This document shows, in pieces, positions 6,839-33,117 of a stretch of DNA of 49,831 nt; position 1 is the stretch's first letter; each line of letters starts with the position of its first letter. The notes under the pieces are model-generated. The model had not been told where the DNA came from. It saw nothing but the letters and a program-made list of their open reading frames with translations, and did no database searches. A program made the translations under genes and the position numbers. Location: contig JAAZVP010000017.1 in the NCBI GenBank assembly GCA_018623495.1, positions 1 to 49,831 of the forward strand. Reading direction: 5' to 3'. Origin of the DNA: Halothiobacillus sp. (GTDB lineage Bacteria > Pseudomonadota > Gammaproteobacteria > JAAZVP01).

Positions 6839-10062
<3,224 letters not shown>

Positions 10063-10066
<4 letters not shown>

Positions 10067-10539
10067 GCAAGACCCCCATGACCGTCGAGGGCGCCGCGCA
10101 GCTCGAGGAAGAGCTCAAGCGCCTGAAGACCGAGGACCGTCCGCGGGTGATCGCGGCGATCTCCGAGGCCCGCGAGCACGGCGACCTCAAGGAGAACGCC
10201 GAGTACCACGCCGCGCGCGAAGAGCAGAGCTTCATCGAGGGCCGGATCAAGGAGATCGAGGCCAAGCTCTCGCACGCCCAGGTGATCGACGTCACCCAGA
10301 TGCCCAATACCGGCAAGGTGATCTTCGGCGCCACGGTGGACCTGCTCGACGAGGACACCGAGGAGGAGTTCACCTACCGGATCGTCGGCGACGACGAGGC
10401 CGACATCAAGAACCGCCTGGTCTCGGTGAACTCGCCCATCGCCCGCGCCCTGATCGGCAAGGAAGAGGGCGACGTGGTCGATTTCCAGGCGCCCGGGGGG
10501 ACCCGGGTCTACGAGATCCTCGAAGTCCGCTACGAGTAA
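10063..10539 (+). CDS. greA: transcription elongation factor GreA
   Basis: A 158-residue factor that enters the RNA polymerase secondary channel and promotes cleavage of backtracked transcripts. The N-terminal coiled coil (about 1-75) carries the acidic tip in [21 protein letters not shown]-terminal FKBP-like domain follows (about 80-158). The GTG at 10063 overlaps the carB stop in GTGA and gives the same length as well-studied GreA proteins; an internal ATG at 10078 would shorten it by five residues. The position after carB is an old gammaproteobacterial arrangement. Confidence 0.96.
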
Positions 10540-11838
<1,299 letters not shown>

Positions 11839-11840
11839 CG

Positions 11841-12095
11841 ATGGCCGGGCAAGTGACGCTGGAGACCCTGCGCGACATCCTCGCCGAGGCCCTGCAGGTG
11901 GAGGCCGATCGCCTGCCCGCGGAGCCCGGTACCGCGCTCCTCGGCGAAGTGGCGGAACTGGACTCCATGGGCGTGGTGGCCGTGCTCACCGGCATCGAGC
12001 AGCACCTCGGCATCACCATCCCGGACGACGCGATCGACGCCGAGGCCTTTGCCACCCTGGGGGAACTCCAGCGCTTCGTCGAGCGTCTCTCCTGA
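11841..12095 (+). CDS. acyl carrier protein (phosphopantetheine-binding)
   Basis: An 84-residue acidic helical protein with the carrier signature ELDSMGVV. S42 is the predicted 4'-phosphopantetheine attachment site. It is not the housekeeping AcpP, which has DSLDTVE; the DSMG form is typical of dedicated carriers in specialised pathways. It starts 2 bp after serS and ends 25 bp before uup, an unusual position. The nearest enzymes that could load or use it are the AMP-forming ligase and PLP decarboxylase at 18.5-21.3 kb; exosortase-A-associated sets of those two enzymes often include such a carrier. That link is inference. Confidence 0.85.
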   Translation: MAGQVTLETLRDILAEALQVEADRLPAEPGTALLGEVAELDSMGVVAVLTGIEQHLGITIPDDAIDAEAFATLGELQRFVERLS

Positions 12096-12120
12096 CACTC
12101 CCAACGACAGAACACGCCCC

Positions 12121-14028
12121 TTGGCCCTCCTGAACCTCTCCGACATTTCCCTGCAGATCGGTGAACGCACCCTGTTCGACGGCGTCACCCTGGGCCTGGA
12201 GGCGGGCAGCCGGGCCTGTCTGCTGGGCCGTAACGGCGAGGGCAAGTCCACCCTGCTCAAGGTGATCGCCGGCGAGATCGTGCCCGAGGGCGGCGAAATG
12301 CGCCTGGAGGCCGGCCGCCAGGTGGCCTACCTGCCCCAGGAACCCGAGCTGCCCGGCGCGCTCTCGGTCTTCGACGCCGTGGCCGAGGGCATCGGCGAAC
12401 TGGGTTCGCTGGTGACCGACTACCACCGCCGGGCGGCCGCGGTCGCCACCGACCCCTCCGAGGCCAACCTCGACGCCCTCCAGCGCCTGCAGCAGGAGTT
12501 GGAGGCCCGCGACGGCTGGCGCCTGGAGCAGCAGGTGGAGAGCGTGGTCTCGCGCCTGGAGCTGCCCGCGGACGCCCGGGTGGACACGCTGTCCGGGGGC
12601 TGGCAGCGGCGCGTGGCCCTGGGCCGGGCGCTGGTGGCCGAGCCCGATCTCCTGCTGCTCGACGAGCCGACCAACCACCTGGACATGGAGTCGGTGGCCT
12701 GGCTCGAGCAATTCCTGGTCGAGGCCGGGATCACGCTGCTGTTCATCAGCCATGACCGGCGTTTCCTGGATGCCGTGGCCACCGAGATCTGGGAGCTCGA
12801 CCGGGGAGCGCTCACCCGCTGGCCGGGCAACTACAGCCGTTACCTCGAGCTCAAGGAGGCCCGCGAGGCCGAGGAGGCCCGCCACGCGGCCGCCCTGGAC
12901 CGCAAGCTGGCCCAGGAGGAGGCCTGGATCCGCCAGGGCATCAAGGCCCGGCGCAAGCGCAACCAGGGCCGGGTGCGGGCCCTGCACGCCCTGCGCGAGC
13001 AGCGGCGCCAGCGGGTGGAACGCCAGGGCAACGCCCGCATGCGGATCGAGGCGGCCGACACCTCCGGCAAGCGGGTCTTCGAGGCCGAGCACGTGGACAA
13101 GCGGCTGGGCGGAAAGCCCATCCTCGCCGACGTCTCCCTGCGCCTGCTGCGCGGCGACCGGGTGGGGCTGATCGGACCCAACGGCGCGGGCAAGACCACG
13201 CTCCTGCGCGTGCTGCTCGGCGATCTCGACCCCGACCGCGGGCGGGTGCGGCGGGGTACCCACCTCGAAGTGGCCTACTTCGACCAGCACCGCGAACAGC
13301 TCGATCCCGAAAAGACCCCCGTGGACGTGGTCGCCGAGGGGGCCGAGCACGTCGACGTTGGCGGCCGGCGCCGCCACGTCATGGGCTACCTGCAGGACTT
13401 CCTCTTCACGCCCGAGCGGGCGCGCACGCCGGTGCGGGTCCTCTCCGGCGGCGAGCGCAACCGGCTGCTGCTGGCGCGGCTGTTCACCCGGCCGGCCAAC
13501 CTGCTGATCCTCGACGAGCCCACCAACGACCTCGATCTCGAGACCCTGGAGGTGCTCGAGTCGCTGCTGGCCGACTATACCGGCACGGTGCTCATCGTCA
13601 GCCACGACCGGGCCTTCCTGGAGAACACCGTCACCGGGGTCTGGGCCTTCGAGGGCGGGGGCCGGGTGCGCGATTACGTCGGCGGCGTGGACGACTGGCT
13701 GCGACAGCGCCGCGAACGCGAGGCGGAGCAGGCCCGGTCGGCCCAGCGGGCAACGGCGAAGAAGGCGTCCGCGTCCCGGGGACCGGGCAAGGCCCGGCCG
13801 AAGAAGCTCGGCTACCGGGAACAGCGCGAACTGGAGGCGCTGCCGGCCGAGATCGAGCGCCTGGAGAACGAGCTCGACGCCCTGCAGCGGCAATCCGGGG
13901 AGCCGGACTTCTACCGGCAGGACGCGGAAACCATTCGCGAGCACATGGCCCGCATGGAGACCGTCGAGGCCGAGCTGGCGACCGCCTTCGACCGCTGGGA
14001 GACGCTGGAGGCCGAAGGGGGCGCGTAA
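12121..14028 (+). CDS. uup: ABC-F family ATPase, Uup-like
   Basis: A soluble twin-cassette ABC protein without membrane segments. The first cassette has Walker A GRNGEGKS (36-43), signature LSGGWQRR and Walker B LLLLDEPTNHLD. A charged linker follows. The second cassette has GPNGAGKT, LSGGERNRLL and LILDEPTNDLDLETLE. The C-terminus (about 545-635) is a charged coiled coil resembling the DNA-binding C-terminal domain of Uup. ABC-F proteins act on ribosomes or, for Uup, also suppress transposon precise excision. The TTG at 12121 gives 635 residues, the usual Uup length, but no clear Shine-Dalgarno precedes it, so the start is less certain. Confidence 0.88.
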   Translation: MALLNLSDISLQIGERTLFDGVTLGLEAGSRACLLGRNGEGKSTLLKVIAGEIVPEGGEMRLEAGRQVAYLPQEPELPGALSVFDAVAEGIGELGSLVTDYHRRAAAVATDPSEANLDALQRLQQELEARDGWRLEQQVESVVSRLELPADARVDTLSGGWQRRVALGRALVAEPDLLLLDEPTNHLDMESVAWLEQFLVEAGITLLFISHDRRFLDAVATEIWELDRGALTRWPGNYSRYLELKEAREAEEARHAAALDRKLAQEEAWIRQGIKARRKRNQGRVRALHALREQRRQRVERQGNARMRIEAADTSGKRVFEAEHVDKRLGGKPILADVSLRLLRGDRVGLIGPNGAGKTTLLRVLLGDLDPDRGRVRRGTHLEVAYFDQHREQLDPEKTPVDVVAEGAEHVDVGGRRRHVMGYLQDFLFTPERARTPVRVLSGGERNRLLLARLFTRPANLLILDEPTNDLDLETLEVLESLLADYTGTVLIVSHDRAFLENTVTGVWAFEGGGRVRDYVGGVDDWLRQRREREAEQARSAQRATAKKASASRGPGKARPKKLGYREQRELEALPAEIERLENELDALQRQSGEPDFYRQDAETIREHMARMETVEAELATAFDRWETLEAEGGA

Positions 14029-14108: not shown

Positions 14109-16742
14109 ATGGACACCCAAGAGAGAACGGCCTGGCACACCCGCGGGATCGACGCGGTCGTCGCGGCCCTGGCGACGGACCTCGAGCAGGGGCTCGGCGA
14201 GGCGGATGCGGCCGGCCGCCTGGCGAGCCACGGCGCCAACGCCATCCGCGAGGGCCGCCGGCGGGGGCTGCTCCCCATGTTCGCCGGCCAGTTCCGGGAT
14301 TTCCTGGTCGCCATCCTGCTGGTCGCGGCCGCCGTCTCCGGGGCCGTGGGGGAGGTCGCCGATGCGATCACCATCCTGGTGATCGTCGCCCTCAATGCCG
14401 TCATCGGCACCATCCAGGAGTACCGCGCCGAGAAGGCCGTGGCCGCCCTCAGGCAGATGGCCGCGCCCTCGGCCCGGGTGCGCCGGGAGGGCGGGCTCCG
14501 CGAGATCCCCGCCTCCGAGCTGGTACCCGGGGACGTGGTCCTCCTCGAGGCGGGCAACGGGGTGCCCGCCGACCTGCGGCTGGTGGAGACCCGCGACCTG
14601 CGCGTGGACGAGTCGGCCCTGACCGGCGAGTCGCAGGTGGTCGCCAAGCTCACCCATGCCCTGGAGGATCCCGGGGCAGTCATCGGCGACCGGCTGAACA
14701 TGGCCTACAGGGGGACCCTGGTGGCCCACGGACGCGGCCTCGGGGTGGTCGTGGAGACGGGCATGGACACCGAGCTGGGGCGGATCGCCGCCATGCTCGG
14801 GGGTGGCATCGGTCAGACGCCGCTGCAAAGGCGCCTGGCCCGCTTCGGCCGGCGGCTGGGCGGGGTGGTACTGGTCATCGCCGCCGTGCTGCTGGTGGCG
14901 GGCCTGGCCCGCGGCGAACCCCTGCTGCTGATGTTTCTCACGGCGGTGAGCCTGGCGGTGGCCGCCGTTCCCGAGGCCCTGCCGGCGGTGGTGACCATCG
15001 CGCTGGCGCTCGGGGCGCGGCGCATGAGCCGCCACCATGCCCTGATGCGCCGGCTGCCGGCGGTGGAGACCCTGGGCTCGGTGTCGGTGATCTGCGCCGA
15101 CAAGACCGGCACGCTGACCCAGAACCGCATGCGCCTGGAGCGCTACTGGCTGGGAGGCCGCCAGCGCGGCGCGGAGGAGGAGCCCGACCTCGATCACGCG
15201 GGGCTGCGCTTCGCCCAGGCACTGGCCCAGAGCAACGATGCCACCCGGGGTCGCGACGGCGGCTGGCAGGGCGATCCCACCGAGATCGCCCTGGTGGAGG
15301 CCGCCGAGGCATTCGGCATGGATCGCCGGGCGCTCGAGGCGGAATACCCCCGCGTCGGCGAGTTGCCCTTCGACGCCGACCGCAAGCGCATGACCACCCT
15401 GCATGCCGACGACGACCGCTACCTGGCCCTGGTGAAGGGGGCGCCGGAGGAACTGTTGCCGTGTTGCCGCGATCGCCTGGAGGGCGAGGGGGCCGTCGAG
15501 CTGGACCGGGCAGGGCTGATGGCCGAGGCCGAGTCCCTGGCCGACCAGGGGTACCGGGTGCTGGCCCTGGCCTGCCGGCACTTCGAGGTCGAGCCGGCAC
15601 TGACCGTCGAGGCCATCGAGACCGACCTCGGCCTGCTGGGCCTGGTCGCCCTGATCGACCCGCCGCGCGAAGCGGTCCCCGGCGCGGTGGCCGACTGCAT
15701 CGCCGCCGGCATCCGGCCGGTGATGATCACCGGCGACCACCCCGGGACCGCCCGGGCGATCGCCGGCCGGCTCGGCATTCCCGCGGACGACGGCGTGCTC
15801 ACCGGCCGCGAGCTGGGCACCATGGACGACGCGCGGCTCGCCGAGGTCGTGCCCGCGACCCGGGTCTTCGCCCGGGTGGCCCCGGAGCAGAAGCTGCGGA
15901 TCGTGGAGATCCTCCAGGCCCGGGGCGACTTCGTCGCCATGACCGGCGACGGGGTCAACGACGCGCCGGCGCTCAAGCGCGCCGATATCGGTGTCGCCAT
16001 GGGCGAGAAGGGGACCGACGTGGCCCGCGAGGCCGGCGACATGGTGCTGCTGGACGACAACTTCGCCTCCATCGTGCGCGCCGTGCGCGAGGGCCGGCGA
16101 ATCTACGACAACATCCGCAAGTTCATCCGCTATACCCTCACCAGCAACTTCGGCGAGATCCTCACCCTGTTTCTCGCGCCCTTGCTGGGCATGCCCCTGC
16201 CGCTGCTGCCCATCCAGATCCTGTGGATCAACCTGGTCACCGACGGCCTGCCGGGGCTGGCCCTGTCCGTGGAGCCCGGCGAACGGGGTTCCATGCACCG
16301 CCCGCCGCGGCCGCCGGAGGAGAGCGTGTTCGCGCGCGGGCTGTGGTGGCAGGTCCTGTTCATCGGCGCCCTGATCGGCGGCCTGTCGCTCCTTGCCCAG
16401 GCCTGGGCCATCGAGACCGGCTCCGAGCGCTGGCAGACCATGGTCTTCACCACGCTGACCCTGGCGCAGATGTTCAACGTGATGGGCATCCGCTCCGAGC
16501 GCGAATCCCTGTTCACCATCGGCATCCTCAGCAACCGATTCCTTTTCTGGGCGGTGCTCCTGACCGTGGGCCTGCAGCTGATGGTGATCTACACCCCCGC
16601 TTTCAACGCCATCTTCCACACCCGTCCGCTGACCGCGTCAGAACTGGCCATGTGCTTTGGCCTGGCATCGCTGGTGCTGGTGGCCTCCGAGCTGCAGAAG
16701 GCGATCCGCCGGGCGCGTCATCCCCTCGTTCAGGCCACGTGA
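14109..16742 (+). CDS. P2A-type cation-transporting ATPase (Ca2+-like)
   Basis: An 877-residue P-type ATPase. The phosphorylated aspartate is D331 in DKTGTLT; the actuator motif TGES is at 172-175 and the hinge [15 protein letters not shown] near 600. M4 has [10 protein letters not shown] (about 285-294), M5 TSNFGEI and M6 [13 protein letters not shown]. These match the ion-binding residues of SERCA/PMR1-type calcium pumps at M4, M5 and M6. The M8 position that is glutamate in SERCA appears to be glutamine (TLAQMFN), so one of the two calcium sites may be absent. The ion could be Ca2+ or Mn2+. Ten membrane segments are expected. It stands alone, 80 bp after uup and 53 bp before trmJ. Confidence 0.9.
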
Positions 16743-16795
16743 TAGGATTGCCCTGCCCACGCCCAGGCGGGGATCGGTCAACACAGGGGAATCGC

Positions 16796-17545
16796 GTGCT
16801 CGGCAATATCCGCGTCGTCCTGGTGGAAACCTTCCACCCCGGCAATATCGGTTCCGTGGCCCGGGCCATGAAGACCATGGGGCTGCACGACCTGGTGCTG
16901 GTGAGCCCCCGGGTGTTTCCCAGCGAGACCGCCACCCGGCTTGCGGTCGGTGCCGCGGACATCCTGGAAAGCGCCCGGGTCGTGGAGAGCCTGGCAGAGG
17001 CCATCGCCGACTGTCGGCTGGCGGTGGCGGCCAGCGCCCGGCGCCGGGGCCACGAGTGGCCGCTGCTGGACGCCGCCGGCTGCGGCAGGCAGATGGTGGC
17101 CGAGGCCCGGCAGGCCCCGGCGGCCCTGGTGTTCGGGCCCGAGCGGATGGGGCTGTCCAACGAACAGTTGCAGTCCTGTACCCACCGGGTGGAAATCGCC
17201 GCCAATCCCGAATACAGCTCGCTCAACCTGGCCGCCGCGGTACAGATACTGACCTACGAGATCCGCCAGGCCCACCTGGCCCTGGAAGGCAAGGGAAGCG
17301 GGGACGCGACGGGCGAGCTCCCGGAGTACCCGAGCAGCGAGGCCATGGAGCATTTCTACGCCCACCTCGAACAGACCCTGCGCGACACCGGCTTTCTCAT
17401 CCGCCAGCACCCGGGCGAGCTGATGGTGCGCCTGCGAAGGCTGTTCAACCGGGCCCGTCCCGAGGCCATGGAGCTCAACATCCTGCGCGGCATCCTCTCC
17501 TCGGTGCAGAAGGCCGCCGGGGTCCGCTCCCGGGACGATTCATGA
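16796..17545 (+). CDS. trmJ: tRNA (cytidine/uridine-2'-O-)-methyltransferase TrmJ
   Basis: A 249-residue SPOUT (trefoil-knot) methyltransferase that modifies the ribose of tRNA position 32. SpoU motifs are visible: HPGNIGSVARAMKTMG (about 14-29), LVFGPERMGLSNEQL (about 112-126) and the knot PEYSSLNLAAAVQIL (about 139-153). The extra C-terminal helical region (about 185-249) distinguishes TrmJ from the shorter TrmL. The GTG at 16796 follows AGGGGA. Downstream lies the 80-bp promoter region of the PstS-like gene. Confidence 0.93.
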   Translation: MLGNIRVVLVETFHPGNIGSVARAMKTMGLHDLVLVSPRVFPSETATRLAVGAADILESARVVESLAEAIADCRLAVAASARRRGHEWPLLDAAGCGRQMVAEARQAPAALVFGPERMGLSNEQLQSCTHRVEIAANPEYSSLNLAAAVQILTYEIRQAHLALEGKGSGDATGELPEYPSSEAMEHFYAHLEQTLRDTGFLIRQHPGELMVRLRRLFNRARPEAMELNILRGILSSVQKAAGVRSRDDS

Positions 17546-18523: not shown

Positions 18524-19744
18524 TCAGACCAGCCGCTCGACCGGGGCGGGGTGGGAGAGGAACTGCTGGGGACTGGCCGTGGCGCCGTAGGCGCCGGACT
18601 GGAACACCGCGAGGACATCCCCCGGCCCGGCCCAGGGCAGCTCGACGCCCTTGCCGACGATATCCAGCGGGGTACACAGCGGGCCATGGATGTCGACGGT
18701 CTCGACCGGTCCCTCCAGGCGGTCGGCGAGTGCCAGGAAGTAGTTCTTGCGCAGGACCTGGCCGAGGTTGCCCGACAGGGCGAGGTGGTGATGCATGCCG
18801 CCGTCGGTGACCAGGATGGTGTGTCCCCGGGAGACCTTCCGGTCCACGACCCGGGTGAGATAGACGCCCGCCTCGCCCACCAGGAAGCGTCCCAGCTCCA
18901 TCACGATGCGGGTGTCGGCGAGCCAGTCGGCATGCCGCTCGATCAGATGCCGGAGAGGATTCCCCACGGCTTCCGGTTCCAGCGGCGCCTGGCCGGGGAA
19001 ATAGGGGATACCCAGGCCGCCGCCCAGGTTGAATTCGGGCAGGCTGCGCCCGTTTTCCTCCACCAGGCGCCGTCCCAGCTCGAAGGTCGCGTCGAGGGCC
19101 TCGGCGATGGCCCCGGCATCGAGGTTCTGCGAGCCCGCGAAGACGTGGATGCCGGCGAATTCGAGTTCGAGCCGCTCGACCAGGCCGAGGGCGGCCCCGG
19201 CGCGCTCGGCGTCGATGCCGAAGGGCTGCGGGCCGCCCCCCATCTGCATGCCGGAGGCCTTGAGGACGAAATCGGGGTTGAGGCGCAGGGCGACCCGTGG
19301 TCGGCGGCCGAGCCCGGCACCGATGCGGTGGATGCGCAGGATCTCGCCCTCGGACTCGGCGTTGAAGGCGATCCCCGCGCGGATGCCCGCGGCGATCTCG
19401 GCATCGCGCTTGCCGGGTCCGGCAAAGCTCACCGGTTGCCCGGGACGGCGGTGGGGGAGGACGCGTTCCAGCTCCCCGGCCGAGGCCACGTCGAACCCGT
19501 CCACGAGTCCGGCGAGGTGGGCGAGCAGGGGGCCGAAGGGATTGGCCTTGACCGCGTAGTGGAGCGCGACGCGTTCGGGCAGGGCGGCCCGCAACCGGTC
19601 CACCCGCCGCGCCACCATCTGCCGGTCGTAGACGAAGGCCGGCGTGCCCAGCGCGTCGGCCCAGTCGACCGCGGGCCGCCCGCCGATCCACAGGCGGTTG
19701 TCGGCCTGCCGGAAACGGGTCCGGGGGTGGAAGGCCCGGGTCAT
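18524..19744 (-). CDS. PLP-dependent decarboxylase, exosortase A-associated type
   Basis: A 406-residue fold-III (alanine racemase/LysA-like) decarboxylase. The PLP lysine is K66 in HYAVKANP. The phosphate-binding glycine loop is GGGLGIPY (about 258-265), and the C-terminal active-site region includes GPLCTPLD. It resembles diaminopimelate/ornithine decarboxylases but has the features of the family found with exosortase A loci, where it pairs with an AMP ligase. Its start (ATG at 19744) overlaps the ligase stop in ATGA, so the two are translationally coupled. Substrate unknown; the housekeeping LysA role is an alternative, less likely given its partner. Confidence 0.82.
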   Translation of the reverse strand: MTRAFHPRTRFRQADNRLWIGGRPAVDWADALGTPAFVYDRQMVARRVDRLRAALPERVALHYAVKANPFGPLLAHLAGLVDGFDVASAGELERVLPHRRPGQPVSFAGPGKRDAEIAAGIRAGIAFNAESEGEILRIHRIGAGLGRRPRVALRLNPDFVLKASGMQMGGGPQPFGIDAERAGAALGLVERLELEFAGIHVFAGSQNLDAGAIAEALDATFELGRRLVEENGRSLPEFNLGGGLGIPYFPGQAPLEPEAVGNPLRHLIERHADWLADTRIVMELGRFLVGEAGVYLTRVVDRKVSRGHTILVTDGGMHHHLALSGNLGQVLRKNYFLALADRLEGPVETVDIHGPLCTPLDIVGKGVELPWAGPGDVLAVFQSGAYGATASPQQFLSHPAPVERLV

Positions 19745-21330
19745 GATGCCGGGCCTTCCCCGCCGTGCCCGGCCCGCAGGCGGTGGCGGTCGATCTTGCC
19801 GTGGTGGGTGTGGGGCAGCGAGTCCAGCACGCGGATCTCGCGGGGCTGCATGTAGTTGGGCAGCTGTTCGCGGCAGACCGCGCGCAGGGCCGCCTCGACC
19901 TCCGCCTCGCCGGTGGCCGGCTGGACGGCCAGGGCGATGGCCTCGCCGTTGACCGGATCGGGCACGCCGTAGGCCGCCGCCTCGCGCACGTGCCCGCTGG
20001 CGTAGACGGGTTCCTCGATCTCGGCCGGGCTCACCCGGTAGCCGCTGGCCTTGATCATGTCGTCGTCGCGGCCGAGGAAGTACAGGTAGCCCTCGGCGTC
20101 GCGCCGGACCCGGTCGCCGGACCACACGGCGACCTCGGGCAGCGGCGTGCGCGAGAGGGCGGCGGGCAGGGGCCGGAAGCGCTCGGCGGTCCGCGCCGGG
20201 TCGCCCCAGTAGCCCCGGGCCACGTGGCAGCCGCGGTGGACCAGCTCGCCCGGTTCGCCGTCGGCGCAGGGCTCGCCGTCGGCATTGACCACCAGGACCT
20301 CGGCACCGGGAATGGGACGGCCGATGGAATCGGGCCGGCGATCCACCTCCGCGGGGGGCAGGTAGGTGGAGCGGAAGGCCTCGGTGAGCCCGTACATCAG
20401 GTAGAGATCGGTGTTGGGCAGGCGCGCCCGCAGGTCGCGGACCAGGGCGGGGGCGAGCGTGCCCCCGGAATTGGTGATGTAGCGCAGCCGGCCGTCGAAG
20501 GCCCCCAGCCAGTCCTGGGCGGCGAGCTGGTGCCAGAGCGTGGGCACCCCGGCAAGGCCGGTGATGGCCTCGTCCTCCAGGGCGCGGCGGACGTCGGTGG
20601 GCAACAGGTAGTCCCGCAGCACCGCGGTGGCCCCGGCCCGGAAGGCGGTGGTTACCTGGCTCAGCCCGTAATCGAAGGACAGCGGCAGCAGGCAGAGGAT
20701 CCGGTCCCCCGGTTCGTTGCCCAGGTAGTCGATGACGCTCTCCGCCCCGCTGACCAGGTTGGCATGGGTCAGCACCACGCCCTTGGGGCGGCCGGTGCTG
20801 CCGGAGGTGTAGAGGATGGCCGCGGGGTCCTGGTCGATCACCGGCGCGGGGGCGGGCACGTCGCCGGTCCCGGCGAGCTCCGTCCAGGCGACCCATTCCG
20901 GGGCGCGATGATCGGTGGCCGGGGCCGGTGTCTCGTCCTCCAGCGTGACCAGCCAGCGCAGGTCGTGGCAGTCGGCGAGATCCCCGGCCAGCTCCTCGGC
21001 CCGCGCGCGGGTGGTCACCAGCAGCCGGACGCCGCAGTCGCGCAGGATGTGGCGTACCTGGCGGGGTTTCAGGACCGGGTTGACGGGCACGAAGATCGCC
21101 CCGGCGCGGCTGGCGGCCAGCAGGGCCACCACCGCCGCGTTCACCTTGGGCAGCATCACCGCCACGCGCTCGCCGCGCTGCACGCCCAGCCGGGCCAGCC
21201 CCGCGGCCACGCGGGCGACACGGCGATCCAGCTCGGCATAGTCCAGGCGCTCGTGCTTGTCGACCAGGGCCTCGGCCCCGGGCCGGGCGTCGGCGACGAA
21301 CCCCGGGAGTTCGTGGATCAGTCTCGGCAT
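19741..21330 (-). CDS. AMP-forming acyl-CoA/acyl-ACP ligase, exosortase A-associated type
   Basis: A 529-residue member of the ANL adenylate-forming superfamily. The P-loop motif YTSGSTGRPKGVVLTH lies near residue 170. A middle motif, YGLTEAFRSTYLP, occurs near 310. The adenylate-binding and hinge sequences GDRVRRDAEGYLYFLGRDDDM lead to the C-terminal lysine region ending GKIDRHRL. It activates a carboxylic acid as acyl-AMP and transfers it to CoA or a carrier thiol. The ATG at 21330 is used; another ATG nine bases upstream is equally possible, and neither has a strong ribosome site. It is first of a two-gene operon with the decarboxylase. The acyl carrier protein at 11.8 kb is a possible acceptor. 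Confidence 0.83.
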   Translation of the reverse strand: MPRLIHELPGFVADARPGAEALVDKHERLDYAELDRRVARVAAGLARLGVQRGERVAVMLPKVNAAVVALLAASRAGAIFVPVNPVLKPRQVRHILRDCGVRLLVTTRARAEELAGDLADCHDLRWLVTLEDETPAPATDHRAPEWVAWTELAGTGDVPAPAPVIDQDPAAILYTSGSTGRPKGVVLTHANLVSGAESVIDYLGNEPGDRILCLLPLSFDYGLSQVTTAFRAGATAVLRDYLLPTDVRRALEDEAITGLAGVPTLWHQLAAQDWLGAFDGRLRYITNSGGTLAPALVRDLRARLPNTDLYLMYGLTEAFRSTYLPPAEVDRRPDSIGRPIPGAEVLVVNADGEPCADGEPGELVHRGCHVARGYWGDPARTAERFRPLPAALSRTPLPEVAVWSGDRVRRDAEGYLYFLGRDDDMIKASGYRVSPAEIEEPVYASGHVREAAAYGVPDPVNGEAIALAVQPATGEAEVEAALRAVCREQLPNYMQPREIRVLDSLPHTHHGKIDRHRLRAGHGGEGPAS

Positions 21331-21351
21331 GGGCGGCATTGTAACCGAGAG

Positions 21352-21398: not shown

Positions 21399-21689
21399 TC
21401 AGGCGTAGACCTTCTTGAGCTGGTGGTCGGCGATGAAGGCGCCCAGGGGAAAGAGCGAGGCGACGAACATCATCAGGCCGTGTACGGGTCGCAGGCCGCC
21501 CCGCGTGACGGCGAGTGCCAGGTTGACCAGCAGCCAGAGGAAGAGGACACCGTGCAGCGGGCCGAGCACGGAGACGGCGACGGGCATGCCGGCCAGGTAC
21601 TTGAGGGGCAGGCCGAGGGCGAACAGGGCGAGCAGGGCGACACCGTCCAGCAGGGCGGCGATGTAGAGTCGGCGGATGTGCGGGTTCAT
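21399..21689 (-). CDS. DUF3817 family small membrane protein
   Basis: A 96-residue integral membrane protein with three predicted hydrophobic helices (about 10-28, 38-63 and 70-87). The GPLHGVLFLWLLVNL segment is characteristic of DUF3817 proteins. Function is unknown. It has its own divergent region with aroC (176 bp) and lies 68 bp upstream of the ligase gene. The basic start MNPHIRRLY suggests a cytoplasmic N-terminus. No catalytic motif is visible. Confidence 0.82.
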   Translation of the reverse strand: MNPHIRRLYIAALLDGVALLALFALGLPLKYLAGMPVAVSVLGPLHGVLFLWLLVNLALAVTRGGLRPVHGLMMFVASLFPLGAFIADHQLKKVYA

Positions 21690-21865: not shown

Positions 21866-22966
21866 ATGGCGGGCAATACCTTCGGCAAGCTGTTCACGGT
21901 GACCACCTTCGGCGAGAGCCATGGTCCGGCCCTCGGCGCGATCGTGGACGGCTGTCCGCCGGGCCTGGGGCTCACCGAGGAGGATCTCCAGCACGATCTC
22001 GACCGGCGCCGGCCGGGCACCAGCCGCCACACCACCCAGCGGCGCGAGCCCGACCGGGTACGGATCCTGTCCGGGGTGTTCGAGGGCGAGACCACCGGCA
22101 CGCCCATCGGGCTGCTGATCGAGAACGTCGACCAGCGTTCCAAGGACTATTCCGAGATCGCCGCCCGTTTCCGTCCCGGGCATGCCGACTACAGCTACCA
22201 GCAGAAGTACGGCCGGCGCGACTACCGTGGCGGCGGGCGCTCCTCGGCGCGGGAGACGGCCATGCGGGTGGCCGCCGGCGCCATCGCCCGCAAGTACCTG
22301 GCCAGCCAGGGCGTGCGCATCCGCGGCTACCTCTCCCAGCTGGGCCCCATCCGCCCGCAGCGCCATGTCTGGGAAGAGGTGGGCAACAACCCCTTCTTCT
22401 GCCCGGATCCCGACAAGGTGCCCGAGCTGGAATCGTTCATGGACGCCCTGCGAAAGTCCGGGGATTCCATCGGCGCCCGCGTCTCGGTGGTGGCCGAGGG
22501 CTGTCCGCCGGGGTGGGGGGAGCCGGTCTTCGACCGCCTGGATGCCGACCTCGCCAAGGCCCTGATGGGGATCAACGCCGTCAAGGGCGTGGAGATCGGC
22601 GACGGCTTCGGCTGCGTCGAGGCGCGGGGCACCGAGTTCCGCGACGAACTCACCCCCGAGGGCTTTCTCGCCAACCACGCCGGCGGGGTGCTGGGCGGGA
22701 TCAGCACCGGCCAGGACCTGGTGGCCCACATCGCCCTCAAGCCCACCTCCAGCATCCGCCTGCCCGGGCGCTCGGTGACCACCGAGGGCGAACCGGCGGA
22801 GGTGGTCACCAAGGGGCGCCACGACCCCTGCGTGGGCATCCGCGCCACGCCCATCGCCGAGGCGATGATGGCCCTGGTGCTGATGGATCACCTGCTGCGC
22901 CAGCGGGCGCAGAACGCGGACGTGGCGACCCCCACGCCCGTGATCCCCGCCGCCCCGGAGGATTGA
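21866..22966 (+). CDS. aroC: chorismate synthase
   Basis: A 366-residue enzyme that converts 5-enolpyruvylshikimate 3-phosphate to chorismate using reduced FMN, the last step of the shikimate pathway. Family signatures are visible: [18 protein letters not shown] (about 17-34) with a catalytic histidine, [19 protein letters not shown] (about 120-138) and the C-terminal [18 protein letters not shown] (about 315-332). Length is standard. It is followed after 7 bp by an MFS permease gene, so the two may be co-transcribed. Confidence 0.98.
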
Positions 22967-24169: not shown

Positions 24170-25180
24170 CTAGCAGATCCGCGGCAGGGGATCGTCTTCG
24201 AGTTCGGGCAGGACCCGGCGCCCGCCCAGCTCGGTGACCAGCTCCACCCGCGCCGGCCCCGGGTGCACCGCGCCGATCTCGGCCGCGGCCTCGCCGGCCG
24301 GCAGCGCGCGCCAGGCCGCGAGGACCGCCGCGGCGGCCCCGGGCGCGGCGACGGCCACCACCCGCCCCTCGCAGGCCAGGTAGAGCGGGTCGAAACCCAG
24401 CAGCTCGCAGACCCCGCGCGCCGCGGGGGAGACGGGGATGGCCGATTCGTCGAGCCGAACCGTCCGCCCGCAGCCGGCGGCGATCTCGTGGGCGACGGTG
24501 GCCAGCCCGCCGCGGGTGGGGTCGCGCATGAAGCGCAGGCCGGCCGATTCCAGGGCCGCCGCGCACAGCGGCCAGACCCCGGCACAGTCCGAGGCGAGAT
24601 CGCCGCGGATGCCGAAGGCCTCGCGGGCGAGCATCACCGCCGCCCCGTGGTCCCCCACGGGGCCGCTGACCAGCACGCGGTCCCCCGGCTCGATGCCCGC
24701 CATGCCCGGCAGGGGGCGCTGGCACTCGCCCACGCCGCTGCTCGCCAGGAACAGCCCGGGGACCTCCCCGCGACCCACCACCTTGGTGTCGCCGGTGACC
24801 ACCGCGACCCCGGCGGCATCCGCCGCCGCGGCGACGGATGCCGCCACGCGTTCCAGGTCGGCCAGGGCGAAACCCTCCTCGACGATGGCGTTGAGGCTCA
24901 GCCAGCGGGGCCGGGCGCCACTCACGGCGAGGTCGTTGACGGTCCCGTTCACCGCCAGGCTGCCGATGTCGCCGCCGGGGAAGAACAGCGGTCGCACGGT
25001 GAAGCTGTCGCTGGTGAAGGCGATCGGGCCGCCCGCCGGGAGCCGCGCGGCGTCCGCGCCGGTGTCGTTGCCCAGCCGGGCGGCGAAGACCGAGTCCACC
25101 AGCCGGCGGCTGCGGCGTCCGCCGTTGCCGTGGGCGAGGGTGATGGCGTCGTGCGGGTCGCGGGAATCGTCGTCGATCAT
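24170..25180 (-). CDS. hypE: carbamoyl dehydratase HypE, hydrogenase maturation
   Basis: A 336-residue PurM-like ATPase. HypE dehydrates the carbamoyl group placed on its C-terminal cysteine by HypF, giving the thiocyanate that becomes an iron-bound cyanide of the [NiFe] site. The terminal residues PRIC supply that cysteine (C336). The N-terminal LAHGNGGRRSRRLV and the VTGDTKVV motif (about 130-137) are the ATP-binding features. It overlaps the hypF stop in ATGA and is last in the hypC-A-B-D-F-E operon. Confidence 0.97.
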   Translation of the reverse strand: MIDDDSRDPHDAITLAHGNGGRRSRRLVDSVFAARLGNDTGADAARLPAGGPIAFTSDSFTVRPLFFPGGDIGSLAVNGTVNDLAVSGARPRWLSLNAIVEEGFALADLERVAASVAAAADAAGVAVVTGDTKVVGRGEVPGLFLASSGVGECQRPLPGMAGIEPGDRVLVSGPVGDHGAAVMLAREAFGIRGDLASDCAGVWPLCAAALESAGLRFMRDPTRGGLATVAHEIAAGCGRTVRLDESAIPVSPAARGVCELLGFDPLYLACEGRVVAVAAPGAAAAVLAAWRALPAGEAAAEIGAVHPGPARVELVTELGGRRVLPELEDDPLPRIC

Positions 25181-27426
25181 GGTGCCGTGGCCTCGATGAC
25201 CTGGCCGAAGGCCAGCCCGCCGTCGTTGACCGGCAACCGGGCCGGCAGGACCGGCTCGAAGCCGGCCTCCGCGAGCTGGCGGACGGCGAGCTCGGCCAGT
25301 CGCCGGTTCTGGAACACGCCGCCGGTGAGTCCCACGCGCCGGATTCCCGTCCGCTGCCCCAGCCGCCGGGCCAGCGCGACGATGCTCGCCGCCAGGGCGG
25401 CGTGGAATGCCCCCGCGCGCTCGGCGACCGGGCGGCGACCATCGCCGAGCATGGGCACCAGGGGCGCCCAGTCGATCACCAGGCCACCGCTCTCGTCCGC
25501 GTGGAGGGGCAGGGCATCGGCCCGTCCCGGGACGTTGGCGACCGATTCCAGCCATTGGGCGGCCTGGCCCTCGAAACTGGCCTGGCGGAGCAGGCCGCAG
25601 AGGCCGGCGGCGGCGTCGAAAAGCCGGCCGATGGAGGTGGTCTCCAGGCTGTTCACACCGCGTTCCCAGGCCTGGTGGAGCAGGGCATCGTCCGCCCCGG
25701 AGGGCCCTTCGCCCAGGGTCCAGCGAAGCCCGCGCGCCGAGCGCCAGGGCTGTTCCGAGGCCTTGCCGGTGCCCGGGATGCGAAACGGCCGCAGATGAGC
25801 GGCCCGTCGCCAGTGGCCCGGACGGCCGGTGAAGGTCTCGCCGCCCCAGAGGCGGCCGTCGTCGCCCAGGCCGAAACCGTCCCAGACGAACATCAGCCAG
25901 TCGCCCTCGGGATCGACCTCGCCGGCAAGCGCGCTGGCATGGGCCCGGTGATGGCCCACGGTGACCGAGGGCAGGCCGGCATCGGCCGCCCAGCGGGTGC
26001 TGGCGTAGTCCGGGTGGCGATCGGCGATCAGCGACCGGGCACGCACGCCGTAGAGGGCCTCGAGCGTGTCGATCGTGGCCCGGAAGGCGTCCAGGCTGCG
26101 GGGGGCCTCCAGGTCGCCGACGTGGGGCGAGACCACCACGCGCTCGTCCCAGGCCAGCGCGACGGTGTTCTTGAGGTGGCCGCCCACGGCCAGGACGGGG
26201 CAGTCGACGCTCCAGGGCAGGCCCAGCTCCAGCGGCGCGATCCCCCGGGCCAGGCGCAGGGGGCGGGCATGGCCGGCCACCACCTGGACCACGGAATCGT
26301 CCACCGGGCGGCGGATGGGCCGGTCGTGGTCGAGTACGCCGTCGAGGCAATCGCCCAGTTCCGTCTCCAGGGTAGCCCGCTCGTGGATCAACGGGTCGCC
26401 GCCGAGGTTGGCGGAGGTGAGGACCAGGGGCCCGTCCACCGCCTCGGCCAGCAGGTGATGGAGGGGGTTGCCCGGGAGCAGGGCCCCCACCCGGTCGAGC
26501 CCCGGGGCGATGCCCGTCGCCAGCTCGCTCCGGGCCGATTGGGGCAGCAGGACGATGGGACGCGCCGGATCCTGCAGGGCCTCGGCGGCGGGGGCGTCGA
26601 TCTCGCAGTGGCGGGCCACGGCCGCCAGCCCGTCCTCGCCCGCCTCGGGGAAGAGGACGGCCAACGGCTTGTGCGGGCGGCGCTTGCGTTGTCGCAGGGC
26701 GTCTACCGCGGCCCCGTCGCGGGCGTCACAGGCCAGGTGGTAGCCGCCCACGCTACGGACCGCGAGGATGCCGCCCTGCGCCAGCGCCCGGCCGGCAAGC
26801 TCGAGGGCCTCGGCGTTGCCCCGGGTGGTCGCACCCGGCCCGGTAAAGGACAAAACCGGGCCGCAGTCGGGGCAGGCCAGTGGCTGGGCGTGGAAGCGCC
26901 GGTCGAGCGGGTCCCGGTACTCGGCCCGGCACGCCGGGCAGAGGGCGAAGCCCGCCATGGCGGTCTGCGACCGGTCCCAGGGCAGGGCATCGAGGATGGA
27001 ATAGCGCGGGCCGCACTGGGTGCAGTTGATGAACGGGTAGCCGTGACGACGGGCGGTGGGATCGCGCAGCTCGGCGAGGCAGTCGTCGCAGACGAACTGG
27101 TCGGGCGGGACGTGCACGTGGCCACGGTCGCTGCACTCGCTGCCGAGGATGTGGAAACCCTCGATGGGGCGCGGCACGCGGGCCTGGCTGGCCGCGATCC
27201 GGGGTCGTGCCAGGGGCGGGGCCTCTTCCAGCAGTTTCTCGCCGTAGCTCGCCAGGCGCTGCGGGTCGCCCTGGGCGAAGACCTGCAGCCAGCCCCCGTG
27301 ATTGCGCACCCAGCCGGCCAGGCCGAGGCGATGGGCCAACCGGTAGGTGAAGGGGCGGAATCCCACGCCCTGGACCCGGCCGCGGAGGTGCCATTCGCGG
27401 GCCTCGACGCCCTCAGTCCACGGCAC
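25177..27426 (-). CDS. hypF: carbamoyltransferase HypF
   Basis: A 749-residue multidomain protein that makes carbamoyl-AMP from carbamoyl phosphate and moves the group to HypE. Domains in order: acylphosphatase (about 8-95, GRVQGVGFRPFTYRLA); two CxxC-x18-CxxC zinc fingers (about 110-185); a YrdC-like domain (about 205-390) with the KRRPHKPLAV motif; and a Kae1-like carbamoyltransferase domain with HHRAHASA. The GTG at 27426 gives the normal family length and has GGGAGG six bases upstream; it overlaps hypD by 14 bp. Longer upstream reading would only be antisense-like sequence within hypD. Confidence 0.95.
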   Translation of the reverse strand: MPWTEGVEAREWHLRGRVQGVGFRPFTYRLAHRLGLAGWVRNHGGWLQVFAQGDPQRLASYGEKLLEEAPPLARPRIAASQARVPRPIEGFHILGSECSDRGHVHVPPDQFVCDDCLAELRDPTARRHGYPFINCTQCGPRYSILDALPWDRSQTAMAGFALCPACRAEYRDPLDRRFHAQPLACPDCGPVLSFTGPGATTRGNAEALELAGRALAQGGILAVRSVGGYHLACDARDGAAVDALRQRKRRPHKPLAVLFPEAGEDGLAAVARHCEIDAPAAEALQDPARPIVLLPQSARSELATGIAPGLDRVGALLPGNPLHHLLAEAVDGPLVLTSANLGGDPLIHERATLETELGDCLDGVLDHDRPIRRPVDDSVVQVVAGHARPLRLARGIAPLELGLPWSVDCPVLAVGGHLKNTVALAWDERVVVSPHVGDLEAPRSLDAFRATIDTLEALYGVRARSLIADRHPDYASTRWAADAGLPSVTVGHHRAHASALAGEVDPEGDWLMFVWDGFGLGDDGRLWGGETFTGRPGHWRRAAHLRPFRIPGTGKASEQPWRSARGLRWTLGEGPSGADDALLHQAWERGVNSLETTSIGRLFDAAAGLCGLLRQASFEGQAAQWLESVANVPGRADALPLHADESGGLVIDWAPLVPMLGDGRRPVAERAGAFHAALAASIVALARRLGQRTGIRRVGLTGGVFQNRRLAELAVRQLAEAGFEPVLPARLPVNDGGLAFGQVIEATAP

Positions 27427-28510
27427 GGGCCTGCCTCCCTGCGCGGATGCCGGCCTCCCACCAGATGCGACAGGCCCCCTCGTCGGAGACCATGCACGGC
27501 CCCACGGGTCGATCGGGCCGGCAGGCGCGACCGTAGAGGGGGCAGCCGTCGGGCCGCCGCCGTCCCAGGACCACCTCGCTGCACTGGCAGCCAGGCGGCA
27601 TGGCCGTGGTGGACGCCCCCGTCCCGGGCCCGTCCGCCGGGTGCAGCGCCCGGCGGGCGTGTTCGCCGGCAAGCGCGTACCCGGACCCCGGCAGGCGGCC
27701 GATGCCCCGCCAGTCGGCGTCGGCCACGGAAAACACCGTGTCCAGCAAGGTCCTCGCGTGCCGGTTGCCCAACGGGCGCACGGCCGCCGGGTAGGCGTTC
27801 TCCAGGCGGGCCTCGCCGGCCCGCATCTGCGCCAGGACCGCCTCGATACCGGCCAGCAGGTCCCCGGTGGAAAAACCCGCCACCGCGGTGGGGATGCCGT
27901 GTTCCTCGGCGACGAAACGCCATTGTTCGCTGCCCATGACGGTGGCCACGTGCCCGGGGGCGATCAGCCCCTCGAAGCCCGCCTCGCCGCCATCCAGCAG
28001 GTGGGCCACCGCCGGCCAGGTCAGCCGGCCGGCCAGCAGCAGCGCCAGGTTCTCCGGCACACCCTCGGCGAGCATGGCGGCCACCGGGGCCATGGTGGTC
28101 TCGAAACCCGCGGCGAGAAAGACCACCGGCCGGTCGGTCCCCTCCGCCAGCGCCCGTACCTCGACCGGCGAGGCCACGGGGCGGACGTCGGCGCCGGCCG
28201 CACGGGCCCCTTCCAGGGTGCGCGGGTTCGATCCGAGGACGGGCACGCGGAGCATGTCGCCGAAGCTCGCTAGGATCACCCCGGGATCGCCGAGCGCCCG
28301 GTCGATGGCGGTGGCCAGGACGTTCTCGGGACAGACGCAGACCGGGCAGCCCGGCCCGGGGATCAGCTCGACGGTCTCGGGGAGCACGTCGCGCAGCCCG
28401 GCACGGGTGATGCTGCGCTCGTGGCCCCCGCAGACATTGAGAATCCGTACCCGCCGGCGCGGGGCCAGCGCGTGGATGCGTGCCAGTCGTTCGCGGGCCC
28501 GCTGGCTCAT
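27413..28510 (-). CDS. hypD: hydrogenase formation protein HypD
   Basis: A 365-residue scaffold protein with a [4Fe-4S] cluster on which, with HypC, the Fe(CN)2CO unit is assembled. Conserved motifs: VCGGHERSITRAG (about 26-38) with the iron-binding cysteine, the GPGCPVCVCP redox segment (about 54-63), GFETT (about 146) and the cysteine-rich C-terminus with PPGCQC, GCPLYGRAC and GPCMVSDEGAC. The ATG at 28510 overlaps the hypB stop (ATGA). Confidence 0.96.
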   Translation of the reverse strand: MSQRARERLARIHALAPRRRVRILNVCGGHERSITRAGLRDVLPETVELIPGPGCPVCVCPENVLATAIDRALGDPGVILASFGDMLRVPVLGSNPRTLEGARAAGADVRPVASPVEVRALAEGTDRPVVFLAAGFETTMAPVAAMLAEGVPENLALLLAGRLTWPAVAHLLDGGEAGFEGLIAPGHVATVMGSEQWRFVAEEHGIPTAVAGFSTGDLLAGIEAVLAQMRAGEARLENAYPAAVRPLGNRHARTLLDTVFSVADADWRGIGRLPGSGYALAGEHARRALHPADGPGTGASTTAMPPGCQCSEVVLGRRRPDGCPLYGRACRPDRPVGPCMVSDEGACRIWWEAGIRAGRQARAVD

Positions 28511-29280
28511 CGGGCGGCGAACCGCTCCCCGGCGGCGGGCAGGGCGCTCCAGTGCGCCCGCAGCCAGTCGATCCAGGGCCCCAGGGTGGCGGGCTCCCGG
28601 CTGCTCACCGCGTCCACCGGGACGGCGTTGGCCAGCTCGGCGAGCCGGTGCTCGACCCGGCCGCGGTCGAACTCGGGGAAGTGCTCGGCCAGGTCGGCCT
28701 TGGTGACCAGTACCCGGTCGGCGGCGCGGAAGAGCACCGGGTACTTGGCGGGCTTGTCGTCGCCCTCGGTGACCGAGAGCAGGGCGACGTCGAGCTGCTG
28801 GCCGAGATCGAAACTCGCCGGGCAGACCAGGTTGCCCACGTTCTCGATGAACAGCACGTCGACCGCCTCGAGGTCCATGGCGTGCAGGGCGTCGTGGACC
28901 ATGTGGGCATCGAGGTGGCAGGCGGTGTCGGTGCAGATCTGCACGGCCTCGATGCCGGCTTCGCGGATGCGCCGGGCGTCGTTCTCGGTGGCCAGGTCAC
29001 CCACCACCGCCGCCACCCGCAACCCGTCGGCCATGGCCCGGGCGCTGGCCTCCACCAGGGCGGTCTTGCCGGCGCCCGGCGAGGACATCAGGTTGACGGC
29101 CAGCACCCGGTGGCGGGCGAAGTGCTCGCGGTTGTGGGCGGCCTGGTGATCGTTCTCGGCCAGCAGGCCCTCCAGCACGTGCACGGACTCGTGGCCGCCG
29201 GGCGTGCGATGCAAATGCCCGCCGGGCTCCACCAGCGCGCGGTTGCCGGGGGTCAGGTTGCAGCCGCAGGTGTCACACAT
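28507..29280 (-). CDS. hypB: hydrogenase nickel incorporation GTPase HypB
   Basis: A 257-residue GTPase that helps load nickel into the hydrogenase large subunit. The N-terminal MCDTCGC is the high-affinity metal site seen in E. coli-type HypB; only a few histidines follow, not a long nickel-storage His stretch. The P-loop is MSSPGAGKT (about 63-71). The G-domain metal site retains adjacent Cys-His in TACHLDAHM (about 130), although the usual GKG before the cysteine is replaced by DTA. Later motifs: ENVGNLVCP and TKADL. It overlaps hypA by 8 bp. Confidence 0.96.
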   Translation of the reverse strand: MCDTCGCNLTPGNRALVEPGGHLHRTPGGHESVHVLEGLLAENDHQAAHNREHFARHRVLAVNLMSSPGAGKTALVEASARAMADGLRVAAVVGDLATENDARRIREAGIEAVQICTDTACHLDAHMVHDALHAMDLEAVDVLFIENVGNLVCPASFDLGQQLDVALLSVTEGDDKPAKYPVLFRAADRVLVTKADLAEHFPEFDRGRVEHRLAELANAVPVDAVSSREPATLGPWIDWLRAHWSALPAAGERFAAR

Positions 29281-29623
29281 CGTCTTCCACCTCGATCTCG
29301 GTGAGCAGGAGTTCGTCGCCGCCGGCGACCCGGGTATCCGGGCTGTTGCAGGACGGGCAGGCGAGCCGCTCGAGGCTGGCCTCCCCGGTATGGCCGCAGG
29401 CGGGGCAGTCGACCCGGATCGGCACCCGTTCGACGGTCAGCCCGGCATCCGCGGCCAGGGTGCCGGCCCGGGCCACCGGGAAGGCACGCTCGACCAGCTC
29501 GGGCACCACGCCCGAGAGCGGGCCGATGCGGATCACCACCCGGGTCACCCGCGCGGCGCCCCGCTCGCGGGCGATTGCCTCCACCCGCCGCAGCATCCCC
29601 CGGCAGACCGAGAGCTCATGCAT
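29273..29623 (-). CDS. hypA: hydrogenase nickel metallochaperone HypA
   Basis: A 116-residue nickel chaperone that works with HypB. The start MHELSV supplies the conserved His2 nickel ligand. A structural zinc site is formed by CPAC (about 73-76) and CPSC (about 88-91). The C-terminus (GDELLLTEIEVE) is typical. It overlaps hypC by 8 bp and hypB by 8 bp, suggesting tight translational coupling and balanced synthesis. Confidence 0.95.
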   Translation of the reverse strand: MHELSVCRGMLRRVEAIARERGAARVTRVVIRIGPLSGVVPELVERAFPVARAGTLAADAGLTVERVPIRVDCPACGHTGEASLERLACPSCNSPDTRVAGGDELLLTEIEVEDDV

Positions 29624-29849
29624 CGGTGCCGGCCCGGGTCATGGCCCGCCAGGTCGCCTCCATGGCCTCGGCCTCGTCGGGCCGCAGCCGCTGGATGGCA
29701 TAGCCGACGTGCACCAGCACGCGGTCACCGGGGGCCGGCGGATCGTCGGCGAGCAGAAAGAGATTGACCGTGCGCTCCACGCCCTGGTGGCGGCAGCGGG
29801 CCTCGTGGCCCTCGATGCCGAGGATTTCCATGGGGATGGCGAGGCACAT
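29616..29849 (-). CDS. hypC: HypC/HybG family hydrogenase chaperone
   Basis: A 77-residue small OB-fold chaperone. The N-terminal MCLAIPMEI carries the essential Cys2 that contacts HypD and the large-subunit precursor. Other family signatures: PGDRVLVHVGYAIQRL (about 41-56). It is first in the hyp operon, which reads leftwards to hypE. Its upstream region is shared with divergent hupE. Confidence 0.95.
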   Translation of the reverse strand: MCLAIPMEILGIEGHEARCRHQGVERTVNLFLLADDPPAPGDRVLVHVGYAIQRLRPDEAEAMEATWRAMTRAGTDA

Positions 29850-29932
29850 GCGCGGGGCGATCCTGACGGTGTCTATACTGCATGGAATCTAGCCCAGTTC
29901 GATTACCCTTGCCGCACTGCTGGAGGAGAACC
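29850..29932. promoter_or_regulatory. divergent promoter region hypC / hupE
   Basis: An 83-bp gap between two divergently transcribed starts. TATACT at 29874-29879 is a good -10 match on the plus strand (hupE direction) without a clear -35. On the minus strand the same place reads as a possible -10. No sigma-54 -24/-12 element or FNR box was found by eye. GGAGGA at 29922-29927 is the hupE ribosome site. Confidence 0.4.
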
Positions 29933-33020: not shown

Positions 33021-33117
33021 CGGGGACCTCGCTTTGTATCGTGTGCCGGTGAGCCGGGATGGCCCGGGGGCTCGCCGAGCGGTCGGGCCCTTGCGCACGG
33101 GCCCGTGAAACAGGGGG
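33021..33117 (-). other. 97-bp intercistronic region within the hydrogenase operon
   Basis: The only sizeable gap in an otherwise overlapping operon. It contains the perfect 12-bp palindrome CACGGGCCCGTG (33096-33107) and a second GGGCCC at 33085-33090. These could fold as a hairpin in the mRNA and affect processing or the relative expression of the hydBG and hydDA halves. No promoter is evident and no small ORF is convincing. Confidence 0.45.

Follow-up and report, generated by a model that had tools for sequence, protein, structure and literature searches.

What can two exosortase-A-associated enzymes do in a genome in which no exosortase is found? The question is raised by contig JAAZVP010000017.1 of the Halothiobacillus sp. 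assembly GCA_018623495.1, a stretch of 49,831 nucleotides referred to here as the window. It encodes, on its minus strand, an adenosine monophosphate (AMP)-forming ligase (a stand-alone adenylation enzyme of family TIGR03098, 19741..21339) and a pyridoxal phosphate (PLP) decarboxylase (TIGR03099, 18524..19744). The original prediction, made from the sequence alone, held that the two may work on their own and make an acylated amine or an unusual precursor. Our comparisons favor a three-part module. Together with a small carrier protein encoded at 11841..12095 on the plus strand, the pair would decarboxylate a carrier-bound substrate, and the host would have retained this module without the exosortase that it usually accompanies. 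We put the probability of this reading, which rests on sequence comparison, at roughly 0.63. The trio itself is real and recurrent, and it can be kept without an exosortase system.

The trio and its co-occurrence across genomes

We confirmed the coupling of the pair: the ligase stop and the decarboxylase start overlap in an ATGA at 19741..19744, read from the sequence as 19744-19741 on the minus strand. The ligase reading frame opens at 21339 (532 amino acids), and a second ATG at 21330 (529 amino acids) is the likelier start, being the better match to the family's usual N-terminus as judged by consensus. In profile searches, the ligase scored 705.8 bits against TIGR03098 (cut-off 592.35), and the next family reached 325.8 bits. 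This was PRK06187 (long-chain acyl-CoA ligase), the best general family among the 25 listed of 108 matching families and below its own cut-off of 476. The decarboxylase (406 amino acids) was assigned by profile score and conserved catalytic residues. It passed the TIGR03099 cut-off by a narrow margin (505.5 vs. 478.45 bits), stayed below that of the lysA family TIGR01048 (226.8 vs. 297.9 bits), and agrees with its family at K66, H200, E283, C357-TPLD-361 and Y386. It shares its superfamily and PLP-lysine region with LysA, but the host genome encodes a separate LysA elsewhere, which carries CETGD where the window decarboxylase carries CTPLD. The scores thus upheld the exosortase-A-associated families proposed for the pair and did not favor general acyl-CoA synthetase or LysA families. 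NCBIfam lists each of the two as a hypothetical equivalog, with no name beyond 'exosortase A system-associated'.

The carrier is a component that the original prediction had missed. Small carrier proteins recur near ligase-decarboxylase pairs in other genomes, and we built a profile from 13 of them, none taken from the host genome. Searched against the host, this profile matched 11841..12095 at 84.8 bits (E 9.2e-24), the sole other match up to E 1 scoring 25 bits. The encoded protein of 84 amino acids carries a DSM phosphopantetheine-type site (Ser42) and was identified by the carrier profile, by Pfam PP-binding (34 bits) and by alignment. Its gene is easy to overlook because the program-made open reading frame (ORF) begins 225 bases upstream.

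We then analyzed 369 genomes of the host's class, evenly drawn from a larger group, in which the host's order is represented by the host genome alone. The ligase (E<=1e-150) was found in 44 of them, 43 above the family cut-off, and PF09721 at E<=1e-5 detected an exosortase, whatever its type, in 125. Exosortase was present in 36 of the 44 ligase genomes vs. 89 of the 325 others (Fisher p 4e-12). Decarboxylase and carrier were traced in a set of 76 genomes, comprising all 44 with the ligase and 32 lacking it, the latter (14 with and 18 without exosortase) picked by low handle number, not at random. A strong carrier match (E<1e-15) occurred in 33/44 ligase-positive and 0/32 ligase-negative genomes, with weaker matches in the ligase-positive G077, G211 and G306 and in the ligase-negative G045 (7e-14) and G080 (5.9e-8). 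The TIGR03099 decarboxylase (E<=1e-80) was present in 35/44 and 0/32, respectively; 34 were above cut-off, and that of G094 is partial. Among the 44 ligase genomes, 33 had both decarboxylase and strong carrier, two the decarboxylase only, none the carrier only, and nine neither (Fisher p 8e-8). The two decarboxylase-only genomes (G008 and G038) are 75% and 81% complete. In G253 and G322, carrier and decarboxylase adjoin, with about 60 bp between the matches, though the ligase lies elsewhere. Decarboxylase and carrier therefore co-occur near-strictly across genomes. This co-occurrence speaks against the earlier idea that the pair works on its own, as does a matching carrier 6.4 kb from the pair, in an arrangement that recurs in another genome (see below).

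A survey of named genomes covered the best 80 ligase loci, in stretches reaching at most 10 kb to each side and often on short contigs. It recovered the decarboxylase in 72 loci (compared with 33 of the 44 class-sample loci in which it lies close to the ligase), the carrier in 38, the hydrolases in 25 and an exosortase, by a three-seed profile, in one. Given these short stretches, a missing carrier does not amount to an absence, but 35 loci had the decarboxylase with no carrier and no hydrolase in the stretch. Three actinomycetes also carried the ligase (L183, Amycolatopsis taiwanensis; L188, Micromonospora craterilacus; L191, M. costi), and both Micromonospora had the trio in tandem.

The layout of the window recurs in locus L139 (MAG_9, titled Gammaproteobacteria), a compact run of aroC, ligase, decarboxylase, carrier, serS, greA and carB, with DapB farther along. 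Window and L139 are 82% identical in aroC, 67% in serS, 65% in greA and 79% in carB. In the window, serS (10561..11838, plus strand) ends 2 bp 5' of the carrier gene, as it also adjoins the carrier in L139, and aroC (21866..22966, plus strand) lies on the ligase side. The gene order is that of L139 with two insertions: a DUF3817 gene between ligase and aroC, and four genes between carrier and decarboxylase. The four encode an ABC-F ATPase, a P-type ATPase, a TrmJ-like methyltransferase (16657-17545) and a PBP-superfamily binding protein; the P-type ATPase and the methyltransferase were identified by eye from their translations. The order aroC-ligase-decarboxylase is also present in Halothiobacillus locus L169. 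G253 carries its ligase on a different contig from the carrier and decarboxylase, which have aroC and an MFS gene within a few kb of them (L198).

Retention without the exosortase system

The host genome comprises 2.46 Mb in 110 contigs, of which the window is one entire contig, and is 98.97% complete. The original prediction had noted that no exosortase, PEP-CTERM protein or polysaccharide gene lies in the window. For the exosortase, PF09721 gave 0 matches at E<=1 in the whole genome as well. As far as the genome is complete and PF09721 can detect, the absence thus holds beyond the window; exosortases too divergent for this profile may have escaped it, and assemblies have gaps. The PEP-CTERM profile PF07589 likewise had no genome match above cut-off; its best match (18.3 vs. 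20.7 bits) spans profile positions 3-15 of 24 and lies inside a 784-codon frame. Hydrolase 1 of the exosortase system (TIGR03100) was not found in the host genome at E<=1e-15. No glycan or exopolysaccharide gene was seen among the window ORFs scanned with Pfam or read by eye, part of the ORFs being unscanned. Finally, tblastn with 29 hydrolases and three exosortases detected no remnant in the window, the best match (E 0.004) falling at unrelated places.

The host is not alone. Eight ligase genomes gave no exosortase match: G000 (the host), G052, G104, G120, G184, G196, G253 and G274. The absence is weak in G104 and G120 because these are 85% and 94% complete. The trio is complete in six of the eight, host included (6/369 sampled genomes), and the other two, G120 and G274, lack decarboxylase and carrier alike. 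One of the six, G184, a single-contig genome in which no exosortase was found, belongs to the same genus as the exosortase-bearing G044. G044 has two hydrolases between carrier and decarboxylase. At this place, G184 has only remnants (74 residues of hydrolase 1 at 53% identity and 18 residues of hydrolase 2), with the trio intact, and it retains a FemAB-type gene (TIGR03019). Between the two genomes, nonsynonymous and synonymous divergences (dN/dS) were 0.088/1.50 (ligase), 0.071/2.11 (decarboxylase) and 0.016/0.90 (carrier); the resulting ratios of 0.02-0.06 are similar to those of four neighboring genes. Because dS is near saturation and both lineages are averaged, these values show constraint on the trio and not its timing.

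We also considered hydrolase 1 as a core member of the module. It was above cut-off in 28 of the 76 genomes and, among genomes with the trio, in 25/27 with exosortase vs. 2/6 without (p 0.005). Since it goes with the exosortase in this way, and was not found in the host genome, it was rejected as a core member.

A second candidate that did not hold was a clade of exosortase-less ligases. The first ligase tree (44 rows) grouped the window with G253 and G274 at 98/81, with G196 at 92/80. A 49-row tree, made from the 44 rows by adding seven and removing the long branches G331 and G274, placed the window in an unresolved, weakly supported set, and we therefore claim no such clade. In the decarboxylase tree (33 rows), the exosortase-less rows did not cluster.

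Likely chemistry and competing explanations

The closest solved relatives of both enzymes come from pathways that work on carrier-bound amino acids. For the decarboxylase, the closest structure is BtrK (2j66/7ru7) at 237 bits, compared with 156 bits for the best diaminopimelate decarboxylase, and the two proteins share GPLCTPxDxxGK and, near the C-terminus, HPxPxE. According to PMC7857480, BtrK decarboxylates glutamate bound to the carrier BtrI (BtrI-S-glutamate). For the ligase, the best single-domain match in the PDB is VinN, narrowly over the full length and more clearly in fragments. A core fragment scored 120 bits against VinN, whereas acyl-CoA synthetases reached 96 and the top single domain of gramicidin synthase 72.8, and with a pocket fragment VinN was the sole match at E<=1e-8. 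VinN adenylates 3-methylaspartate as a beta-amino acid, with D230 binding the amino group; we use the pocket numbering and residue roles given in PMC11253843. In vicenistatin-type clusters, the adenylation enzyme loads a stand-alone carrier, after which a decarboxylase acts (PMC10662134).

Four VinN pocket positions are largely conserved across the 44 ligases: D230 in 43/44, Tyr231 in 39/44 (Ala in five), Ser or Thr at 299 in 43/44 and Arg331 in 44/44, with no gap relative to VinN around 330/331, where the beta13-beta14 loop is shortened. The window ligase reads D, Y, S, F and R at 230, 231, 299, 330 and 331, which is the family consensus. The three actinomycete ligases have Ala at position 231, as does a proteobacterial subgroup.

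VinN-type loading combined with BtrK-type decarboxylation on a carrier makes the following scheme the likeliest. The ligase would adenylate an amino acid, most probably an acidic one through its side-chain carboxyl, and attach it to the phosphopantetheine arm of the window carrier (11841-12095). The decarboxylase would then remove the free alpha-carboxyl of the bound amino acid, as BtrK does on BtrI-S-glutamate. The predicted product is an omega-aminoacyl carrier, with beta-alanyl (from aspartate) and gamma-aminobutyryl (from glutamate; GABA) as the obvious candidates. The aminoacyl group might finally be passed by a transferase to a glycan, lipid or small molecule, a step at which we are guessing. 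On this scheme, an 'unusual precursor', the second product suggested for the pair, stays plausible, and the first, an acylated amine, is disfavored by the VinN-type pocket (with a full-length lead of only 7-8 bits) and by the likeness to BtrK.

Our best guess for the destination is the decoration of a surface glycan. In M. costi, the trio sits among glycosyltransferases, a polysaccharide deacetylase and a Wzy_C protein (20 ORFs scanned). Among eight examined genomes that have the ligase without decarboxylase and strong carrier, four have a glycan-type acyltransferase beside the ligase (an MBOAT protein in G274; hexapeptide-repeat transferases in G306, G203 and G312). The scanned ligase neighbors in the other four (G077, G211, G331 and G349) are LpxB, NAD synthase, an HI0933-like protein and one without a match. 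A broader proposal, which we hold tentatively and regard as somewhat doubtful, is that TIGR03098, TIGR03099 and the carrier form a general, exosortase-independent pathway making carrier-bound omega-amino acids of the beta-alanyl or GABA type for surface glycans. It would be a decarboxylating counterpart of D-alanylation, recruited by exosortase-A loci and run without exosortase by some lineages, including the host and perhaps actinomycetes.

Several known systems resemble the trio in part. XrtA/PEP-CTERM loci have the same two curated families, the overlapping pair and the same type of carrier, whereas the host genome lacks a detectable exosortase, PEP-CTERM match above cut-off and hydrolase 1, and its carrier lies apart from the pair, beside serS. 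Butirosin biosynthesis by BtrK, BtrI and BtrJ offers the nearest decarboxylase by sequence and a small dedicated carrier. BtrJ is an ATP-grasp ligase, however, whereas the window ligase is AMP-forming, and no aminoglycoside genes were seen. In vicenistatin biosynthesis by VinN, VinO and VinL, VinO is a PLP enzyme. The window ligase shares D230, the aromatic residue at 231, S299, R331 and the loop length with VinN, and the trio would follow the same adenylation-carrier-decarboxylase logic as outlined in PMC10662134. The ligase differs in having Phe in place of K330, no polyketide synthase was seen, and the likeness is to the VinN sequence only.

Several observations weigh against the three-part module. 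Over the full length of the ligase, VinN scored 209.4 bits vs. 202.0 for a fatty-acyl-CoA synthase and 201.6 for a feruloyl-CoA synthetase. Because this margin is small, we marked the module down and the acylated-amine alternative up. VinN K330, one of two loop residues, is Phe in 43/44 ligases, the window's included, so that binding of Asp in the manner of VinN is not assured and the substrate is left open. No transferase or acceptor was identified, and nothing in the window names an acceptor. The window carrier lies on the strand opposite to the pair, and the flanks of Halothiobacillus locus L169 show no carrier (best match 6.6 bits). The threshold of E<1e-15 for strong carriers was set after the output had been seen, and 13 of the 33 carrier-positive genomes had fed the profile; excluding them leaves 20 genomes with both genes, two with the decarboxylase only, none with the carrier only and nine with neither. 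These nine ligase genomes, three of which have weak carrier matches, indicate that the ligase can serve without decarboxylase and carrier, and in the named loci the carrier count falls well short of that of the decarboxylase (38 vs. 72). Finally, 16 of 140 conserved columns set the window decarboxylase apart from 31 relatives (the partial G094 decarboxylase and G331 being left out of the counts), and the window proteins had long branches in the first ligase tree and the decarboxylase tree. The window ligase branch measured 1.08 in the 49-row tree and was no longer flagged as long.

The deviating columns and the long branches would suit a relic, in which the trio is left over from a lost exosortase-A or exopolysaccharide locus and drifts toward loss with no present function. 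So would the association of the ligase with exosortase in the class sample, the failure to find exosortase, PEP-CTERM protein and hydrolase 1 in the host, and the decayed hydrolases beside the trio in G184. We nevertheless consider a relic unlikely. All three frames are full length with their catalytic motifs retained, their GC content at third codon positions (0.89-0.94) is similar to that of neighboring genes, and the window holds no detectable remnant of hydrolase or exosortase. Moreover, the trio recurs without an exosortase match in six sampled genomes, and in G044 and G184 it is under purifying selection like its neighbors, as averaged over both lineages. An acylated amine, for which the ligase would activate a fatty or other carboxylic acid and the decarboxylase would supply a free amine to be joined to it, draws on the second-choice family of the ligase, PRK06187, and on the acyl-CoA synthetases within 7-8 bits of VinN in full-length PDB scores. 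The pocket is of the amino-acid type, with the amino-binding Asp in all but one of the 44 ligases, the decarboxylase is nearly inseparable from the carrier, and its closest relative is BtrK; this product is therefore improbable in our view.

Two further explanations give the decarboxylase a different place. DltA and DltC are the model for one of them: in D-alanylation, an AMP-forming enzyme charges a small carrier with an amino acid. Ligase and carrier could likewise supply a surface glycan with an amino acid, with the decarboxylase as a side branch or later modifier, and both the MBOAT or hexapeptide-repeat transferases beside four of the eight ligases and the surroundings of the M. costi trio are in line with this. 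No such transferase was found among the scanned neighbors in the other four genomes, none was seen beside the window genes, and there is no MBOAT protein among the window ORFs scanned. The window also has the decarboxylase in addition, and the tie between decarboxylase and carrier makes it central, so we rate a Dlt-like role as quite improbable. The other explanation is ordinary metabolism, that is, a second diaminopimelate or ornithine decarboxylase and an ordinary acyl-CoA synthetase paired by chance. Both proteins do belong to those superfamilies, but the decarboxylase is under the lysA cut-off, the host has its separate LysA, and the decarboxylase accompanies the ligase in most loci of both surveys, which makes a chance pairing very hard to credit.

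The carrier-bound decarboxylation module is of interest for two reasons. With the carrier and the likeness to VinN and BtrK, two families of unknown function gain a definite reaction that can be tested, and where a genome has kept the trio but neither exosortase nor hydrolase, the chemistry of the trio is set apart from protein sorting. In the open-access literature, with subscription papers mostly outside its scope, we found no paper naming the accession or name of either family, and the exosortase papers sampled yielded no link between the pair and carrier-bound decarboxylation. A word search of the main text of Haft et al. 2006 (PMC1569441) found no ligase, decarboxylase, acyl carrier, hydrolase, acyltransferase or pyridoxal, and one of PMC9850573 found nothing on the pair. 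Both enzyme families are already known, whereas these searches turned up neither a reaction for them nor a use without an exosortase.

Neighboring genes

The DUF3817 gene between ligase and aroC encodes a small protein (21399..21689, minus strand; TIGR03954, 62.7 bits; PF12823, 62.1 bits). It lies about 60 bp upstream of the ligase in the same direction and is possibly co-transcribed with it. As a candidate conserved partner it was rejected, with no tblastn match at E<=1e-3 in loci L039 to L201.

Two arrangements outside the host were also recorded. In L045 (G274, the genome without decarboxylase and carrier), the MBOAT acyltransferase gene (7714-9123, plus strand) is directly upstream of the ligase, a Dlt-like arrangement. 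In L200 (contig C77 of the exosortase-less G196; 9548-12259, minus strand), two exosortase-type hydrolases adjoin a condensation and adenylation protein that matches the carrier profile (38.7 bits), which hints that such hydrolases act on carrier-bound groups.

Elsewhere in the window, hydrogenase maturation and hydrogenase-type genes occupy about 24170-33951 on the minus strand; HypE, HypF and HypD were recognized by eye, and CobW/HypB-type, HycI protease, Oxidored_q6 and NAD-binding subunits by Pfam. A LonB/LonC-like protease (38293-40716, minus strand) and an encapsulin-family shell protein (42398-43246, minus strand; PF04454, 222 bits) are followed at 43673-47062 on the plus strand by consecutive genes for a Zn-protease, a RimK-type ATP-grasp ligase and an AstE/AspA-type hydrolase. 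At the contig end, 48871-49818 (minus strand) encodes an aromatic amino acid lyase; its match to PF00221 (271 bits) starts at profile position 191 of 466.

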